Below, one piece after another: positions 11,749 to 34,431 of a stretch of DNA of 55,505 nt. Each line of letters begins with the position of its first letter. The stretch's first letter is position 1. This stretch comes from Thermoprotei archaeon. GTDB taxonomy: Archaea; Thermoproteota; Thermoprotei; Gearchaeales; Gearchaeaceae. The translations under genes were made by a program, and so were the position numbers. Under the pieces are notes generated by a model. The model saw only the letters and a list, made by a program, of their open reading frames with translations, was not told where the DNA came from and ran no database searches. The DNA is taken from assembly GCA_017857595.1 (NCBI GenBank), contig JAFMCU010000009.1, positions 1-55,505 of the forward strand. Reading direction: 5' to 3'.

Positions 11749-13626
11749 ATGTGGGATGAAAAAACCTTTGTATTATTTTCATCATTAAGCGATTTGCAAA
11801 TATCTAAGAATGGAGAATTTATAGTGTATAACATAACGAAAGCTAATTACGAATCAAACGATTACAAAAAAACTATAATCATAAAAGACTTAAGAGAAGG
11901 TTCAGAAAGTTATATAGAAAATTCTTATAATCCAACGCTGAGCAAAGATGGAAAATTTCTTGCATACGTTAAAGAAAATAAGAGAAAAAAATTAACCGAA
12001 GTGTGGATCTGTGAACTTAAAAATTTGAGTAGAAGAAAATTATTAGAAATCAAGAATTTCATAGATCTTGTATGGTTAAAAGATGACAAAGAAATATTGG
12101 TAATTACTTATGAAAGATTGGGAGATGAAGATCTTTATTTCGAAAGCAAAATACCTTTTTGGTTTGATGGACGTGGAATTTTGGACAGCGAGAAAACGAA
12201 TTTCTCAATTTATGAATTAAATTCAGGTAACAAACTTGAATCTTTTACTCAAGATTTTTTTGTTCTACCTTACGTTACTGTAGCTATAGCACATCAAGAT
12301 GGATTTATAATTAATATTCCAAAAAGAGAAAATCCGTATATAAAATATGATATTTTAGAATATACCAATGGTTCTCTTGATTATCTTTATAGAGATGTTT
12401 CTTTCACAGCAATAGATTCTAATGATAGGGAAATTTTGTTCTTAGGAAAGCCTAAGAAAAGTAGCATAACAGAACACGATTATTTGTATAAATACAGTAA
12501 TGGAGATTTGGAACCTATAACTGAAAATTTCAAATGGAATAACTATGATGGCAAAATAATTTCTTCTGGCGAGATTTACTTTACATCAGCGGTTAAAGGT
12601 AAAATTGTTTTAGATAAATTTAAAGAATCTAAAGAAACTTTAGTTGATGAAAATTGCTATATTTTGGATTTTGATGTAAGTGAAGATGGAAAAGTTGTTT
12701 TTGTGAAACAAACATCTACAGTTCCTGATGAGATATTCTTTTTTGATGGTAGAATAAAGCAAATTACCAATTACAATACAAGAATAATAAAGAAAATTGG
12801 CTCTATTGAACCAATTTATTTTAATTATAAATCCTTCGATGGTAAATTGATCGATGCATGGTATTTGAAGCCTAAAGAGCTTAAAGGAACATGTCCGATA
12901 ATTGTAATGGTCCATGGTGGACCAAAGGGAATGTATGGTTATCAATTCATATACCAAGCACAGCTTCTTGCAAATAATGGATATTATGTACTACTAACAA
13001 ATCCAAGAGGAAGTGATGGATATGAAGAAGAATTTGCTAAAGATGTGGTTCAAAAAACAGGATTGGAAGATTTTCAGGATATTTTATATGGACTGACTAA
13101 TCTTTTTGAAAAAGAAAAAGAAGTTGACAAAAATAAAGTTGGCATCACTGGAATAAGTTACGGAGGTTTCATGACAAATTGGGCTATAGGTAAATCGAAC
13201 ATTTTTAAAGCTGCAATAAGTGAAAATGGGATAAGTTATTGGTTATCAGATTATGGATTTTCTGATATAGGATACTGGTTCAATAAGGAGCTTATAGGAG
13301 AAAATCCTTTAGAAAATGAAAATTACAAAAAATTAAGCCCATTGTCTTATGTAAATAACGTAAATACACCCGTTTTATTCATACATAGTACAGAAGATTA
13401 CAGATGTACCTTCGATCAATCATTAATATTTTACACTTTATTGAAAGATTTAGGTAAAGAAGCATATATTGCATTATTCAAATCAGGTGCTCATGCCCAC
13501 AGCCTCAATGCAAAGCCTAGACATAGAGCTAAGCGATATAAGTTAATCCTTGAATTCTTTAGACAAAAATTAATTGAAAATAAAATTGGATTCGATATAA
13601 ATTTCTTAAAAGAATTTAAAGACTAA
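11749..13626 (+). CDS. S9-family serine peptidase (acylaminoacyl-peptidase type)
   Basis: 625 residues. An N-terminal beta-propeller-like region (about 1-350) carries WD-like repeats such as TLSKDGKFLAYV and SEDGKVVFVK. The alpha/beta-hydrolase domain contains HGGPKG (oxyanion region), the nucleophile motif GISYGG with Ser470, the acid in HSTEDYRC (Asp550) and the GAHAH histidine (His582 or 584). Size and motifs match acylaminoacyl peptidases and prolyl oligopeptidase-like enzymes that trim short or N-acylated peptides in the cytoplasm. No signal peptide is seen. It probably feeds amino-acid catabolism together with the M24 and M14-like enzymes elsewhere in the window. Confidence 0.9.
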   Translation: MWDEKTFVLFSSLSDLQISKNGEFIVYNITKANYESNDYKKTIIIKDLREGSESYIENSYNPTLSKDGKFLAYVKENKRKKLTEVWICELKNLSRRKLLEIKNFIDLVWLKDDKEILVITYERLGDEDLYFESKIPFWFDGRGILDSEKTNFSIYELNSGNKLESFTQDFFVLPYVTVAIAHQDGFIINIPKRENPYIKYDILEYTNGSLDYLYRDVSFTAIDSNDREILFLGKPKKSSITEHDYLYKYSNGDLEPITENFKWNNYDGKIISSGEIYFTSAVKGKIVLDKFKESKETLVDENCYILDFDVSEDGKVVFVKQTSTVPDEIFFFDGRIKQITNYNTRIIKKIGSIEPIYFNYKSFDGKLIDAWYLKPKELKGTCPIIVMVHGGPKGMYGYQFIYQAQLLANNGYYVLLTNPRGSDGYEEEFAKDVVQKTGLEDFQDILYGLTNLFEKEKEVDKNKVGITGISYGGFMTNWAIGKSNIFKAAISENGISYWLSDYGFSDIGYWFNKELIGENPLENENYKKLSPLSYVNNVNTPVLFIHSTEDYRCTFDQSLIFYTLLKDLGKEAYIALFKSGAHAHSLNAKPRHRAKRYKLILEFFRQKLIENKIGFDINFLKEFKD

Positions 13627-20237: not shown

Positions 20238-22040
20238 CTAAAAATAATAATATTCTCCCTTTTCTTTTTGCATCCTATCTAAATATGAATTTATTTTATT
20301 AATTCTAGGCCGATTAGTTTTAGGATCCCTTCTAAAGGTTATACCTATATCTTTAAGAAATAAGTTAAATCCTTTTTTAATTGAATAAGGACCTTGCGAA
20401 TACCCTTGCACACCTGGCTTCCCCATGAATACCATTATCGAATCTGCTGCAAAATCTTGAATTATTAAATCATGCTCAATAACCACAACCAGCTTAGAAA
20501 AAGTTTGAGCATATTTTTTTAATAATTTTGCGACAGCTAATCTTTGTTCAATATCTAGAAATGCGCTAGGTTCATCTAGTAAATATACATCAGCATCTTT
20601 TAAGAAAGTGGAGGCAACTAGTAAAGCCTGTTTTTCTCCACCGCTTAATTCTTTTATTTTTCTTTCTAATATTTGATCGATTCTGAGAGGTACAATTATT
20701 TCATCCTTTATCCAATCATCGGATAAATAATTCTTATTTATAGAAGTTAAATAATCCTTAACTTGGATTTCTTCATCTTCAAATTTGAATACTTGTGGTT
20801 TATAGCTAATTTTTGGATTTTTATCATAAGTAAATATGTTTCCTTCAGCTGGTAATATTTCACCTACAATTGTTTTTATGAATGTTGTTTTTCCAATTCC
20901 ATTTTGACCCAAAATTCCAAGTACTTCTCCTTTCATAGCATATCCATTTTCAACATGCAGAACAAATCCATTCAATTTGATAAGCAAATCTGTCCATTCA
21001 ATAAATCTGTAACCTTGCTGTTCATTTCTTTCTAAAGGTCGCATATTAAAATAAATCGGATTCTTACGCCATCTTATATTTTCAGATGGCAAGTATCCTT
21101 CGAAATAAGAATTGATCGCTGTTCCTGTAGGATAAGGTAATGAGACAATACCATAAACTTTTGGTTTACCATATATTATACAGATCGAATCACATAGATA
21201 GTCTAATATACTAAAATCATGTTCTACTAAAAGAATAGTTTTACCCTTTGACAATAACTTATCCAGTAATTTTGCTAAATTTAATCTTTGATATGAATCT
21301 AAATAGCTGCATGGTTCATCGAAGAAGAACACATCAGCATCTCTCAGAATACTTATAGCAATGGTAAATCTTTGTAGTTCACCTCCGCTCAAATCTCTAA
21401 CCTTTTTATTCATAATTGAATTTAAGCCCAAAAATTCAGAAATTTCATCAATTTGTTTATTCACATCAACATAGTTTAAAATTTGTTTTACTTCACCTTG
21501 CAATTGCTTTGCTACGTTGAATATTTCTTGAGTTTTTATGGATACTTTTATTTTTCCGTTGTAAAGGTCAGTTAAATATCTTTGGATTTCTTTACCTCTA
21601 AATCTTTCAATTATTTCATCTATATTAATTTCTCTATCGAGAATTCCCAAATTTGGTTTTAACTTACCAGCTAAGATATTTATTGCAGTAGACTTACCTG
21701 ACCCATTCATACCGATTATACCTACTGCTCTTCCATATTTAGGCGTTGGAATACCATATAGTCTAAAAGAATTTATTCCATATTGATGAATACAAGGAAC
21801 ACTAGGTTCACTTGCAAGATTTACTATCTCTATAGCATGAAAGGGACATTTCTCAACACATATTCCGCAACCTATACAGCCTATCTCGTCAATAACTGCC
21901 TTACCTTGTTCATCTAACCAAACTATGTTGTTTCCAGCTCTTACAATAGGGCAGAATCTATTACATTCAAAATTGCAATCATTAGATCTGCAATATTCTC
22001 TTTCAACTATTGCTATTCTTAATTTACTAGCTGCTTTCAA
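20238..22040 (-). CDS. abcE1: Ribosome recycling ATPase ABCE1 (RLI)
   Basis: 600 residues. Eight cysteines (17, 22, 26, 30 and 55, 58, 61, 65) form the two 4Fe-4S clusters of the N-terminal domain. Two ABC ATPase domains follow. NBD1 has GMNGSGKST, LSGGELQRF and FFFDEPCSYLD; NBD2 has GQNGIGKTT, LSGGEKQAL and YLLDEPSAFLD. ABCE1 splits the 70S ribosome after termination with aRF1/aPelota and stays on the 30S subunit. It overlaps the upstream zinc-ribbon gene by 14 bp, so both are in one operon. Confidence 0.97.
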   Translation of the reverse strand: MKAASKLRIAIVEREYCRSNDCNFECNRFCPIVRAGNNIVWLDEQGKAVIDEIGCIGCGICVEKCPFHAIEIVNLASEPSVPCIHQYGINSFRLYGIPTPKYGRAVGIIGMNGSGKSTAINILAGKLKPNLGILDREINIDEIIERFRGKEIQRYLTDLYNGKIKVSIKTQEIFNVAKQLQGEVKQILNYVDVNKQIDEISEFLGLNSIMNKKVRDLSGGELQRFTIAISILRDADVFFFDEPCSYLDSYQRLNLAKLLDKLLSKGKTILLVEHDFSILDYLCDSICIIYGKPKVYGIVSLPYPTGTAINSYFEGYLPSENIRWRKNPIYFNMRPLERNEQQGYRFIEWTDLLIKLNGFVLHVENGYAMKGEVLGILGQNGIGKTTFIKTIVGEILPAEGNIFTYDKNPKISYKPQVFKFEDEEIQVKDYLTSINKNYLSDDWIKDEIIVPLRIDQILERKIKELSGGEKQALLVASTFLKDADVYLLDEPSAFLDIEQRLAVAKLLKKYAQTFSKLVVVIEHDLIIQDFAADSIMVFMGKPGVQGYSQGPYSIKKGFNLFLKDIGITFRRDPKTNRPRINKINSYLDRMQKEKGEYYYF

Positions 22041-22290
22041 AGTATTCTAATGAATCCTTGTAAAGCTCCTCTAATAAAAGTTTTTCGTCTTCTCTTGTTT
22101 TTACCTCTTCAGGTGATGTCACAGCAATTTCCTTTGACCTTTTAGAGGTAGACACTTGTTTTTTTGGTTTTGTTTTTCTTGGTTGTTTAACTGCCTTTTT
22201 TGTATTTCCACAATTTTTGCAAACAAGGACTACCTGCGTTTTCCTCTTTTCAGGTATCATTACACCGCCGCATTTATTGCAAAACTCCAT
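22027..22290 (-). CDS. Single zinc-ribbon protein resembling the TFS/Rpb9 N-terminal domain
   Basis: 87 residues. Cys4, Cys7, Cys24 and Cys27 form a zinc ribbon (FCNKCGGVMIPEK and VLVCKNCGN) very like the N-terminal ribbon of transcription factor S. The C-terminal ribbon with the catalytic Asp-Glu loop of TFS is absent. In its place are a lysine-rich linker (about 30-55) and an acidic tail (56-87). It could bind RNA polymerase or ribosomes without cleavage activity. It overlaps the start of ABCE1 by 14 bp. A TATA-like AATTTTTAAATAAT lies about 25-38 bp upstream of its ATG, so the operon starts here. Confidence 0.78.
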   Translation of the reverse strand: MEFCNKCGGVMIPEKRKTQVVLVCKNCGNTKKAVKQPRKTKPKKQVSTSKRSKEIAVTSPEEVKTREDEKLLLEELYKDSLEYFESS

Positions 22291-22337
22291 CGGATAGTTA
22301 AAAAATATGATACATTATTTAAAAATTATTAGTTAAA

Positions 22338-22415
22338 TTATTCTTCAAATTCCTCAAACTCTTCTAATTCTTCTAAGTCCTCGAATTCCTCTAATTCCTC
22401 AAACTCTTCTTCCAT
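22338..22415 (-). CDS. 25-residue extremely acidic microprotein (putative)
   Basis: A complete ATG-to-TAA frame of 25 codons. The peptide has 16 Glu, 1 Asp, 4 Phe, 3 Leu and the initiator Met, and no basic residue. After MEEE the hydrophobic residues fall at 5, 8, 11, 14, 17, 20 and 23, an exact three-residue period of (F/L)-E-E with one Asp. GAA and GAG are mixed and the Leu codons are all TTA, so it is not a pure DNA microsatellite. An in-frame stop lies 15 bp upstream, so the ATG is the only start. TTTTTAAGC (minus strand, 22452-22444) gives a TATA-like box about 30-37 bp upstream. It precedes the zinc-ribbon/ABCE1 operon on the same strand. No known family is recognised; expression is unproven. 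Confidence 0.5.
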   Translation of the reverse strand: MEEEFEELEEFEDLEELEEFEEFEE

Positions 22416-22755
22416 TTTTATTCTAATTTATTTATTATTAATTGCTTAAAAACCTTTCTAAAAATATTTTTTCTATAATAAGCATTTAAGGCATGAAAAC
22501 GACTTTCTCCTCGCCATAAATGGTGAGGCTTTCAATTATGTGTGAGAATTTTAATAATTTTAAGATAATATTCTCTGAATGAGTGACGATTTTATTAAAG
22601 TTTCAAATTATTTGAAGATTATTCATATTGCATCGATTGCAAAAATGAGAAATAAATATAGCTCATGCTTAAATCATATGAGATTTGGTTATCTTTTAGA
22701 CAACATTTTAAATAAAGTATTCATGTATAAAAAAATAAAATAGAAAATATTTTTA
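22416..22755. other. 340-bp intergenic region with one GC-rich hairpin
   Basis: AT-rich spacer between the divergent acidic microprotein gene and the lysine-rich protein gene. CCTCGCC (22509-22515) and GGTGAGG (22522-22528) pair, with one G-U, around ATAAAT, and stand out in the AT-rich surroundings. A CTGA followed by GTGACGA near 22574-22587 hints at a D'/C' box pair, but flanking C and D boxes are lacking. No larger ORF was found. Confidence 0.4.
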
Positions 22756-23150: not shown

Positions 23151-23720
23151 ATGGAACCTAGAAATTATCAAAAAGGATTATTAATTACTACGTATAAAGG
23201 TAGAGAAGACGATTGTGCACAGGAAGTATGGTATATACTATCTCAACTAGATTATAGGGAATTTGAAATAGAGAAAGTTGGCTTACCTGGAATATTAATT
23301 GTGAAAGCGAATTTTGACCCGATTAAATGTTTAAATGATTTCATAAACTACTCGAAGGAAAATATATGGAGTATTAGATACATTTTAAAAATGATCCCAT
23401 TGGAAATCATTGTTGATGCTGATTATGAAAAAATCGCTGAAGCTGCAGAAGCGTTATCAACGAAAATTGAAGAGAATTCTACATATAGGATTTCTGTTAA
23501 TAACAGGTCTTCTCCTTTAAATTCAAAAGAGATTATTTACAAGACGGCAGAAAGGATTAACAGAAAAGTAAATCTGACGGAGTTTGACTATGAGGTCGTT
23601 ATAGAAATAATAGGAAAGATAGCAGGAATATCTATATTAAAAAAAGGTCAAGTATTTTCACTTTATAAGGCAAGAGAAAAGAGCGTTAAAGAGATAACAG
23701 ATGAGAATAAAAGTTATTGA
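23151..23720 (+). CDS. THUMP-domain protein, archaeal Tan1-like
   Basis: 189 residues from the ATG at 23151; a TTG two codons earlier also opens the frame. Residues about 8-40 (GLLITTYKGREDDCAQEVWYIL) and about 75-175 (THUMP core ending EIIGKIAGISILK) match archaeal homologues of Tan1. In yeast, Tan1 is the tRNA-binding partner of the N4-acetylcytidine-12 acetyltransferase Kre33. It presumably helps modify tRNA. Its 3' end overlaps the convergent cgi121 gene by 7 bp, placing two tRNA-modification genes tail to tail. Confidence 0.85.
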   Translation: MEPRNYQKGLLITTYKGREDDCAQEVWYILSQLDYREFEIEKVGLPGILIVKANFDPIKCLNDFINYSKENIWSIRYILKMIPLEIIVDADYEKIAEAAEALSTKIEENSTYRISVNNRSSPLNSKEIIYKTAERINRKVNLTEFDYEVVIEIIGKIAGISILKKGQVFSLYKAREKSVKEITDENKSY

Positions 23721-33191: not shown

Positions 33192-34370
33192 TTAATCTAT
33201 TATCCAGCTTGCTATTCTTTTGAAAATTGTTGAACCAACAAACGTTGTAAAAAGTGCCATAAAGACTATACCTGTAAATATATTATTATCAATAAAATTA
33301 TTAGCTAATCCAATAGAAGCAACAACTAATCCCGTCTCACCTCTGGGAACCATACCTATAGAAGCTGATAGTGCAGCCCTAAAATTTTTTAAAGTTATAT
33401 ATGCGAATGGAAACACTCCTATTATCTTAAACAAGATTGCAATTATTGTTAGTTCAATTGCAAATCCAAAAGTCTGCAAGTTTATGGACAATAAATTAAC
33501 TTGTGCTCCTACAACCACAAAGAATATTGGACCAAAAACGCTTAAAAGAACTTCAGTTATGGATCTTATTTTTTCAGCAGTATAACTTTCAGCTAATGCT
33601 ACACCTGCAATGAATGCAGATATAATCGGTGAAAAACCTAATATGCTCATTATCGTTGTAAGTCCAAAAAGTAGTACAAAAGGCAGCTGATAAACATATT
33701 TATCTCCAGCTAAGTTCACAATCTTAGGAATTATATATACAGAAGTAACTAATATGATTAACCAAGATATTGTGAAATAAGCTATCAATGAAAATATATT
33801 TATAAGAAATCTTCCTGTTATGGAGGTTGCTATTGCAATAACAATTGAAAGTAAAATTAAATCAACAACGTCATCTAATGCCGAAGCAGATAATAAAAAA
33901 TCCACACCTTTACTTTTTATTCTTAATTCTTGAATAATAGCAGCAGCGGCTGCTAGACTAGTAGCACCTAAGGATACGCCTATAAAAAGTGCTTCATGTA
34001 TTCCAAAACTTTCATAGTAAACAAATGTAGCAACAGTAAATGGTAAAATAGCACCTAGAGTAGCTCCAAGAAAACCCCATATACCTGTTTTTCTTAGAGG
34101 AGATATTCCATGTTCTAGTCCTGAAGCAAATATTAAGAGTATCATGGAGAACTCTGATAGGAATAGAAGAAAATCATTAATTGTAAATATGTCATAACCA
34201 GAAATTTGGTTTATATATCCGCCTATTGCAAATGGGCTAATTAATATACCAGCTAATATTTCTCCGACCAATAAAGGAAAACCATACCTTGATATAAAGC
34301 TTCTAACTACAGCGGCTATAAATATCATAACGGATATTTCAAGGAATACTAGAATGAAACTACCATCCAT
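33192..34370 (-). CDS. Monovalent cation:proton antiporter (CPA2/KefB-type membrane domain)
   Basis: 392 residues with 12-13 hydrophobic helices. ALDDVVDLILLSIVIAI carries the Asp-Asp pair typical of CPA2 Na+/H+ or K+/H+ exchangers, and PRGETGLVVASIGLANNF is the conserved C-terminal helix with the Arg-Gly-Glu motif. No TrkA-N regulatory domain is attached. In an acidophile it would help pH and ion homeostasis. It is on the same strand as the MHS operon, 41 bp upstream, but has its own spacing and is probably separate. Confidence 0.9.
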   Translation of the reverse strand: MDGSFILVFLEISVMIFIAAVVRSFISRYGFPLLVGEILAGILISPFAIGGYINQISGYDIFTINDFLLFLSEFSMILLIFASGLEHGISPLRKTGIWGFLGATLGAILPFTVATFVYYESFGIHEALFIGVSLGATSLAAAAAIIQELRIKSKGVDFLLSASALDDVVDLILLSIVIAIATSITGRFLINIFSLIAYFTISWLIILVTSVYIIPKIVNLAGDKYVYQLPFVLLFGLTTIMSILGFSPIISAFIAGVALAESYTAEKIRSITEVLLSVFGPIFFVVVGAQVNLLSINLQTFGFAIELTIIAILFKIIGVFPFAYITLKNFRAALSASIGMVPRGETGLVVASIGLANNFIDNNIFTGIVFMALFTTFVGSTIFKRIASWIID

Positions 34371-34431
34371 AATAACTATTCATAAAATATGAAATAAAAA
34401 CTTAATTTAAAAATATTTGTAATATTTTGCC

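Follow-up and report, generated by a model that had tools for sequence, protein, structure and literature searches.

ABCE1 splits ribosomes in archaea and eukaryotes. The archaeal ribosomal stalk protein aP1 recruits translation factors through a tail with an acidic hinge and a hydrophobic C-terminus. In eukaryotes, the acidic motif of eIF3j docks one tryptophan in a hydrophobic pocket ringed by lysines (PMC2824034). HCR1 binds RLI1 via the ABC2 domain, and excess RLI1 rescues deletion of hcr1 (PMC3836723). An acidic residue followed by a C-terminal aromatic residue is also found in the eukaryotic Fe-S signal [LIM]-[DES]-[WF]-COO-. This signal depends mainly on its aromatic side chain and terminal carboxylate, and QDW suffices (PMC10623007, PMC13082141). 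Lto1 matures Rli1/ABCE1 using its C-terminal tryptophan (PMC4523923). The same signal is essentially absent from archaeal Fe-S proteins (PMC10623007). Finally, N-terminal glutamate runs and Glu-rich nascent chains trigger intrinsic ribosome destabilisation (PMC9718836). Here we compare these systems with a very short acidic gene located upstream of ABCE1 in a Thermoprotei archaeon. The whole stretch of DNA analysed, 55,505 nucleotides long, is called the window below.

The acidic gene and its neighbours in the window

The initial annotation described a complete minus-strand gene encoding a 25-residue, 68% acidic microprotein at positions 22338-22415, with Phe or Leu at every third position from 5 to 23. 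Both points are exact. Direct translation gives MEEEFEELEEFEDLEELEEFEEFEE, composed of 16 Glu, 1 Asp, 4 Phe, 3 Leu and 1 Met, with Phe or Leu at residues 5, 8, 11, 14, 17, 20 and 23. The peptide contains no tryptophan and its C-terminus is Phe-Glu-Glu. Positions of the gene and of the surrounding features are collected in Table 1.

Table 1. Features at the microprotein locus of the window
Feature	Positions	Strand	Description
ABCE1	20238..22040	-	RNase L inhibitor family ribosome-splitting ATPase with two [4Fe-4S] clusters; Pfam ABC_tran, Fer4, Fer4_RLI
Zinc-ribbon gene	22027..22290	-	87 aa; TFS/RPB9-type N-terminal zinc ribbon; between the microprotein gene and ABCE1
TATA-like box AATTTTTAAAT	22317..22327	-	Between microprotein stop and zinc-ribbon ATG; read from the sequence, putative function
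Microprotein gene	22338..22415	-	25 aa, MEEEFEELEEFEDLEELEEFEEFEE; ATG start, TAA stop
TATA-like box GGTTTTTAAGC	22444..22454	-	29-39 nt 5' of the microprotein ATG; read from the sequence, putative function
THUMP-domain protein	23151..23720	+	Divergent from the microprotein gene; Pfam THUMP E 2.8e-7

As had also been noted, the gene precedes the zinc-ribbon and ABCE1 genes on the same strand, and a TATA-like box lies upstream of it. The spacing of GGTTTTTAAGC would imply a very short leader on the microprotein transcript. TATA-like boxes are found at similar distances in a relative of the same genus (L002, CTTATAAG) and in one of the same family (L003, TTTTTAAA). The microprotein and zinc-ribbon genes are 47 nt apart. 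The box AATTTTTAAAT, at 27-37 nt, has a promoter-like distance for a separate zinc-ribbon/ABCE1 transcript, and similar boxes are present between the two genes in both relatives.

The zinc-ribbon protein is slightly under the cut-off of Pfam Zn_ribbon_RPB9 (E 2.2e-5) and scores 28 bits with TIGR01384 TFS_arch, below the cut-off of 64.75. It retains only the TFS/RPB9-like N-terminal ribbon and an acidic tail. No second match able to be a full TFS was found in the window genome, which is about 90% complete. Homologues of the zinc-ribbon protein are present in 41/41 genomes searched, and they sit before ABCE1 in several families of the class.

A divergent gene facing the microprotein encodes a highly basic protein (126 aa, net charge +22), in agreement with the initial annotation, which had suggested that the microprotein may mimic nucleic acid and bind a basic protein, the ribosome or RNA polymerase. 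This neighbour faces the microprotein within the window's archaeal family only, being 56% identical in L002 and 22% identical in L003. We reject it as the partner because it is limited to this family while the microprotein is phylum-wide. The gap between the two genes (22416-22755) is 340 bp long, much longer than in the congener, with 22% GC. It contains an 8-bp hairpin at 22509-22528 (CCTCGCCA/TGGTGAGG, one G-T pair), whose folding energy is mildly unusual only (z -1.63) and which has no Rfam match. An Rfam scan of the whole window returned one tRNA only, and no RNA family at the microprotein locus.

Extreme composition sets the microprotein frame apart. It is the only ATG open reading frame of at least 18 residues and 60% acidic content in the window, and 60 first-order Markov copies of the window contain none. 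The window genome has no other instance of the Glu-Glu-[Phe/Leu] repeat, which is also absent from another genome of the family (G002). In the congener (G001), the repeat is seen twice because the contig repeats the locus head to head. The two copies, at 11751-12005 on the minus strand and 34130-34384 on the plus strand of contig C7, look like an assembly duplication.

A Thermoproteota-wide acidic-aromatic family

Loci of relatives were gathered by searching 41 genomes with the zinc-ribbon protein. Microprotein orthologues were found at the same place in five of them (L002, L003, L004, L016 and L007). Directly 5' of the zinc-ribbon gene, the same-genus relative L002 encodes MEEEFEELEEFEELEELEELEEFEE and the same-family relative L003 encodes MAEEEELEEFEEFEEFEELEEFEEF. 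The C-terminal residue is Glu in the window and L002, and Phe in L003. Two relatives of the same order (L004, L016) and one from another family of the class (L007) have longer microproteins in which tryptophan is present; in L007 the TAG stop codon overlaps the start of the zinc-ribbon gene. The window, L002-L004 and L007 share a common arrangement, with the microprotein before the zinc-ribbon and ABCE1 genes and the THUMP gene divergent.

Comparison of the window with L002 reveals 8 synonymous changes over 9.8 sites (pS 0.81) and 2 non-synonymous changes over 65.2 sites (pN 0.03). With the synonymous fraction set at 0.13-0.3, the corresponding binomial P ranges from about 3e-6 to 1.6e-3. The initial annotation had named a synonymous to non-synonymous ratio near 1 as a result that would speak against a gene; the ratio is far from 1 and the gene reading survives. 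Four Thermoproteaceae-like genomes show 4-11 synonymous versus 0-1 non-synonymous changes, and synonymous changes exceed non-synonymous ones by far in most groups compared. In several clades, purifying selection has kept the microprotein gene as a conserved coding frame. Its start signals and the selection seen at codon level indicate that it is very probably translated. Lack of the frame in close relatives was another result named as speaking against a gene; the frame is conserved in genus, family and order, and the suggestion that it is a genuine, unrecognised gene is borne out.

More distant members were sought with a DNA pattern encoding EEEWEEEE. Within the class, it matches 37/81 genomes (28/43 good ones) and the reversed control matches none. 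Across the phylum, it matches 164/397 genomes (162/392 good ones) and 79/167 genera, with a reversed control near zero. Nearly always, one locus per genome is found. The frames are tiny proteins such as MREEEEEWEEEEEEEWEEEEW and MPIWYYREEEEWEEEEELWEEFEEEWEEEEEW. Anchoring on ABCE1 (Pfam Fer4_RLI) and looser patterns brought in more families, some with Asp. The Thermoproteota genomes covered are Sulfolobaceae-like, Thermoproteaceae-like, Thermofilaceae, Bathyarchaeia, Caldarchaeales and Brockarchaeota, where "Sulfolobaceae-like" and "Thermoproteaceae-like" are labels that we infer. According to the taxonomy used, the class of the window genome includes Thermoproteaceae- and Thermofilaceae-like genomes, and the Sulfolobaceae-like genomes share the phylum only. 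In the latter, MVLALMEEDWEDIEEEDWEDIEEEDWEEDEW is located directly 5' of ABCE1. The expectation of short Glu-rich frames upstream of ABCE1 in relatives is therefore confirmed for Sulfolobaceae-like genomes, but these frames have tryptophan at 4-7-residue spacings and not the predicted three-residue period.

Among the GTDB-wide matches listed, short E/W frames are seen in Thermoprotei, Thermofilales/Thermofilaceae, Desulfurococcales, Ignisphaera, Pyrodictium delaneyi and Bathyarchaeota, as well as in Caldarchaeum, Calditenuaceae, Wolframiiraptor, Brockarchaeota, Methanomethylicota and one Asgard archaeon. Almost all of the bacterial, lokiarchaeal and Nitrosopumilus matches among those listed are within or at the ends of longer proteins, or are incidental frames; the few short bacterial exceptions among them are from hot-spring lineages such as WOR-3. 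In ammonia-oxidiser-like (Nitrosopumilaceae-like) and several other families, pattern searches did not find the microprotein; such searches miss diverged copies and this absence is provisional. In Thermoplasmatota, the pattern is present in 2/194 genomes, both times within long proteins. In Asgard archaea, it is present in 22/195 genomes, mostly within a conserved protein of about 480 residues. Short E/W frames or E/W-rich tails are seen in about 5/195 Asgard genomes, and ABCE1 is near none of them.

Several isolated cases were recorded. The short Asgard frames or tails away from ABCE1 are those of L292, L294, L310 (for instance MSNGNREPYEEEEEEEWEEEEEEEWEEEEE), L288 and L311. In WOR-3 and Bacteroidia (L180, L227, L130, L174, L187), short proteins or long tails have similar E/D/W repeats, possibly by convergence. 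A Chloroflexi zinc-ribbon protein (L186), which resembles the amino-group carrier LysW, has the C-terminus EEEWEEEWEEEEEEEI, unlike the usual short LysW tail. In Nitrosopumilus and Nitrosarchaeum (L144, L156), a probable membrane protein of about 900 residues carries EEEWEEE as its C-terminal tail. A viral origin was considered and rejected, the strict EEWEEEEW-stop pattern giving 0 matches in 2.9 million viral contigs.

Family anatomy was described on 110 distinct archaeal sequences, with start codons assigned mechanically. The sequences are related and not independent, and the counts are descriptive and give no probability. Members are about 17-60 residues long (16-83 with the assigned starts) and only the acidic core is present. 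This core is 73.5% Glu, 14.4% Trp, 4.5% Asp, 3.0% Phe and 0.8% Gly, with 8 Lys/Arg in 3070 residues and a net charge of about -0.63 per residue. An Asp/Glu run is located near the N-terminus of the window copy and of most relatives. Hydrophobic residues are mostly 3-6 residues apart, with a peak at 5. The exact three-residue period is found only in the window's archaeal family (L001-L003) and is lost in the next family and in the wider set. As a functional signature of the family, the period put forward in the initial annotation is rejected, hydrophobic spacings peaking at 4-6.

The last residue is Trp in 82 sequences and Phe in 12, that is 94/110 versus 19.8 expected from shuffled cores. The penultimate residue is acidic in 109/110, giving a C-terminal consensus -E-E-W/F. 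Besides the window copy and its congener, some members also end in Glu (L016, L175, L190). A C-terminal Trp or Phe is a typical, not a defining, trait, since it holds in 94 of the 110 sequences and in neither the window nor L002. The window copy agrees in every respect with the family definition: a free-standing protein of up to about 60 residues, at least 60% acidic, with spaced aromatic or Leu residues and almost no Lys/Arg. It is a divergent member of a Thermoproteota-wide, essentially single-copy acidic-aromatic family, and is probably a diverged form in which Phe and Leu have replaced Trp. Pfam and NCBIfam scans of three family members and a phmmer search of the PDB with one member gave no match. 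No paper describing the Glu/Trp family was found in open-licence PubMed Central; a description elsewhere, or annotation as "hypothetical protein", is possible. The family is apparently undescribed, and the novelty concerns the sequence family.

Expression signals were examined on 117 frames, a set that includes seven bacterial or chance frames later removed. A Shine-Dalgarno-like motif is found within the 16 nt before the assigned start in 34/117 frames versus 10.7 after shuffling. A run of at least 5 T within 60 nt after the stop is found in 76/117 versus 27 after shuffling. By eye, Bathyarchaeia starts are often preceded by GGAGGTGA or GAGGTGA, and an TTTATAAC-like box is seen shortly 5' of the downstream ABCE1 start. 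From these sequence signals, the microprotein gene looks like its own transcription unit in many clades.

We also considered that there might be no gene here, the locus being a chance frame or a DNA or RNA element rich in purines. The low-complexity GAR repeats, with some internal duplication (L105 for example), would suit such an element. This reading is nevertheless highly improbable in view of the excess of synonymous changes in most groups compared, the Shine-Dalgarno enrichment, the conserved position of the stop after Trp, the phylum-wide presence with a near-zero reversed-pattern control and the empty Markov windows.

Gene order across the family

All neighbour counts given here are lower bounds, loci being often cut at 1.5 kb. 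ABCE1 is downstream on the same strand in at least 61/110 distinct copies, with or without the zinc-ribbon gene in between. ABCE1 follows the microprotein at 26-60 nt in Sulfolobaceae-like genomes; in Bathyarchaeia the distance is 99-126 nt. Where a gene intervenes before ABCE1 in Bathyarchaeia, we take it, by recognition of its sequence, to be asparaginase-like. The THUMP gene is divergently upstream in about 32/110 copies. The ancestral order seems to be THUMP on the opposite strand, microprotein, with or without the zinc ribbon, then ABCE1.

This order has been rearranged in several ways. In L112, L178 and L256, ABCE1 is inverted to a head-to-head position, so that the microprotein is divergent from the zinc-ribbon/ABCE1 side, and adjacency is kept. 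Stand-alone copies between opposite-strand genes are found in L041, L044-L047, L049, L139, L164 and L171; clades with stand-alone copies include Thermofilaceae and Caldarchaeales, among others. Thermocladiaceae-like L052 and L271 have lost the ABCE1 neighbour and still have the THUMP one.

A very short Glu-rich frame before a gene of ribosome metabolism resembles acidic nascent-chain leaders. The microprotein could then act in cis, its Glu-rich nascent chain destabilising its own ribosome, so that expression of ABCE1 downstream would respond to ribosome status. Glu runs near the N-terminus are a known trigger (PMC9718836), and the ribosome-splitting factor is the downstream gene in the majority of copies, at very short distance in Sulfolobaceae-like genomes. 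However, a leader would have to precede the gene it regulates in every genome and share its transcript, which is not the case in L112, L178 and L256, nor in Thermofilaceae and Caldarchaeales. Unlike acidic leaders, the microprotein appears to have its own promoter and terminator in many clades, as judged from the T-runs after the stop and from the TATA-like boxes that are seen by eye, in Bathyarchaeia and the window, ahead of ABCE1 or the zinc-ribbon gene. It also has stand-alone and divergent copies and a conserved C-terminal aromatic residue, which a leader would leave unexplained. A leader function is, overall, quite improbable. A purely cis role is excluded because stand-alone copies between opposite-strand genes keep the peptide sequence. 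Since this sequence is kept in both divergent and stand-alone settings, it is strongly suggested that the microprotein has its own transcript and acts mainly in trans, as a free and disordered peptide.

ABCE1 is present in 392/397 genomes of the phylum. As it is near-universal and pattern searches did not find the microprotein in several families, the microprotein is not required for ABCE1 function.

Possible roles of the peptide

Our preferred reading, to which we give a probability of about 40%, is that the microprotein is an accessory factor, a disordered acidic-aromatic ligand that binds ABCE1 or small subunits carrying it. A basic surface on the partner would attract the Glu run, and spaced Trp/Phe side chains, often one of them C-terminal, would dock in shallow hydrophobic pockets. 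The eIF3b RRM receives the acidic Trp motif of eIF3j/HCR1 in this way. Such a ligand may tune ribosome splitting or hand-over to initiation. By analogy, we judge this eIF3j-like mode the most likely one: an acidic chain with aromatic or hydrophobic residues at intervals is all that it requires, and every member is of this kind.

In composition, most relatives resemble the eIF3j/HCR1 motif, a short disordered acidic stretch centred on a tryptophan; the window copy has Phe/Leu and no Trp. The archaeal peptide differs in having several tryptophans, Glu rather than Asp, and often a C-terminal Trp. eIF3j is larger and has further domains, whereas the archaeal peptide stands alone and consists of the acidic core; no homology is claimed. 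HCR1 has a functional and physical tie to ABCE1/RLI1 (PMC3836723), and the archaeal peptide, whose gene is associated with ABCE1 in the genome, may have one too. The likeness to the aP1 tail is a lead only: the stalk tail is part of a ribosomal protein, the microprotein a separate gene with repeated tryptophans. Several facts count against the ABCE1-ligand reading. To our knowledge, archaea have no eIF3. The window copy has Glu as its last residue and no Trp. Of the distinct copies, about one in two has no ABCE1 next to it, and the gene has been relocated away from ABCE1 in Thermoproteaceae- and Thermofilaceae-like genomes. Gene order near ABCE1 may be inertia, as the THUMP neighbour is retained too.

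The peptide might instead be a general polyanionic aromatic molecule without any special tie to ABCE1, shielding basic proteins as a histone chaperone or a nucleic-acid mimic does. Candidates for shielding are ribosomal proteins, chromatin proteins or the THUMP tRNA-modification protein. The extreme composition, with almost no Lys/Arg, and the tolerance of spacing, length and aromatic type fit such a role. So do the divergent THUMP neighbour, sometimes the sole shared one (L052, L271), the moved and stand-alone copies in several clades, and the many genomes having ABCE1 in which no microprotein was found. On the other hand, a pure polyanion would have no need for the C-terminal Trp/Phe that 94 of the 110 members have, and ABCE1 has been retained as a neighbour across many families and after inversion. 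We consider this role rather unlikely, though deserving of serious attention.

Maturation of ABCE1 provides another possible link. In an Fe-S targeting adaptor doing the job of Yae1-Lto1, the acidic-Trp C-terminus would recruit the delivery machinery, perhaps archaeal Cia2/MIP18, to load the [4Fe-4S] clusters of ABCE1. As in the Lto1/TCR tripeptide, the family consensus end presents an acidic residue, then a C-terminal Trp/Phe with a free carboxylate; Lto1 serves ABCE1/Rli1, and ABCE1 is here the neighbour gene. The deca-GX3 motif of Yae1-Lto1 is absent, no member having a glycine repeat. The -2 position is acidic, not aliphatic, so that the sequences depart from [LIM]-[DES]-[WF], a signal that archaeal Fe-S proteins essentially lack (PMC10623007). 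The adaptor would also leave the repeated internal tryptophans unexplained, and C-terminal Glu is found in the window copy, its congener and some other members (L016, L175 and L190). We know of no Cia1 in archaea, which also counts against the adaptor. This mode is unlikely, and we favour it less than the eIF3j-like one because it needs a C-terminal aromatic residue, missing from the window copy.

Gene finders pass over genes of this length and low complexity, and homology searches mask them, so that an essentially single-copy gene found over much of a phylum has apparently been overlooked. The family may bear on the accessory partners of archaeal ABCE1 and on the route of its Fe-S loading. 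With copies 26-60 nt before ABCE1, culturable laboratory species among the Sulfolobaceae-like genomes are probably suited to direct study. Tentatively, and at somewhat less than even odds, this free-standing and ancient acidic-aromatic peptide would be an unrecognised component that helps to recycle ribosomes or to mature ABCE1 in Thermoproteota and in some Asgard archaea. If true, a phylum-deep gene of 17-30 codons would supply separately the acidic Trp motif that eukaryotes hold within eIF3j or at the end of Lto1.
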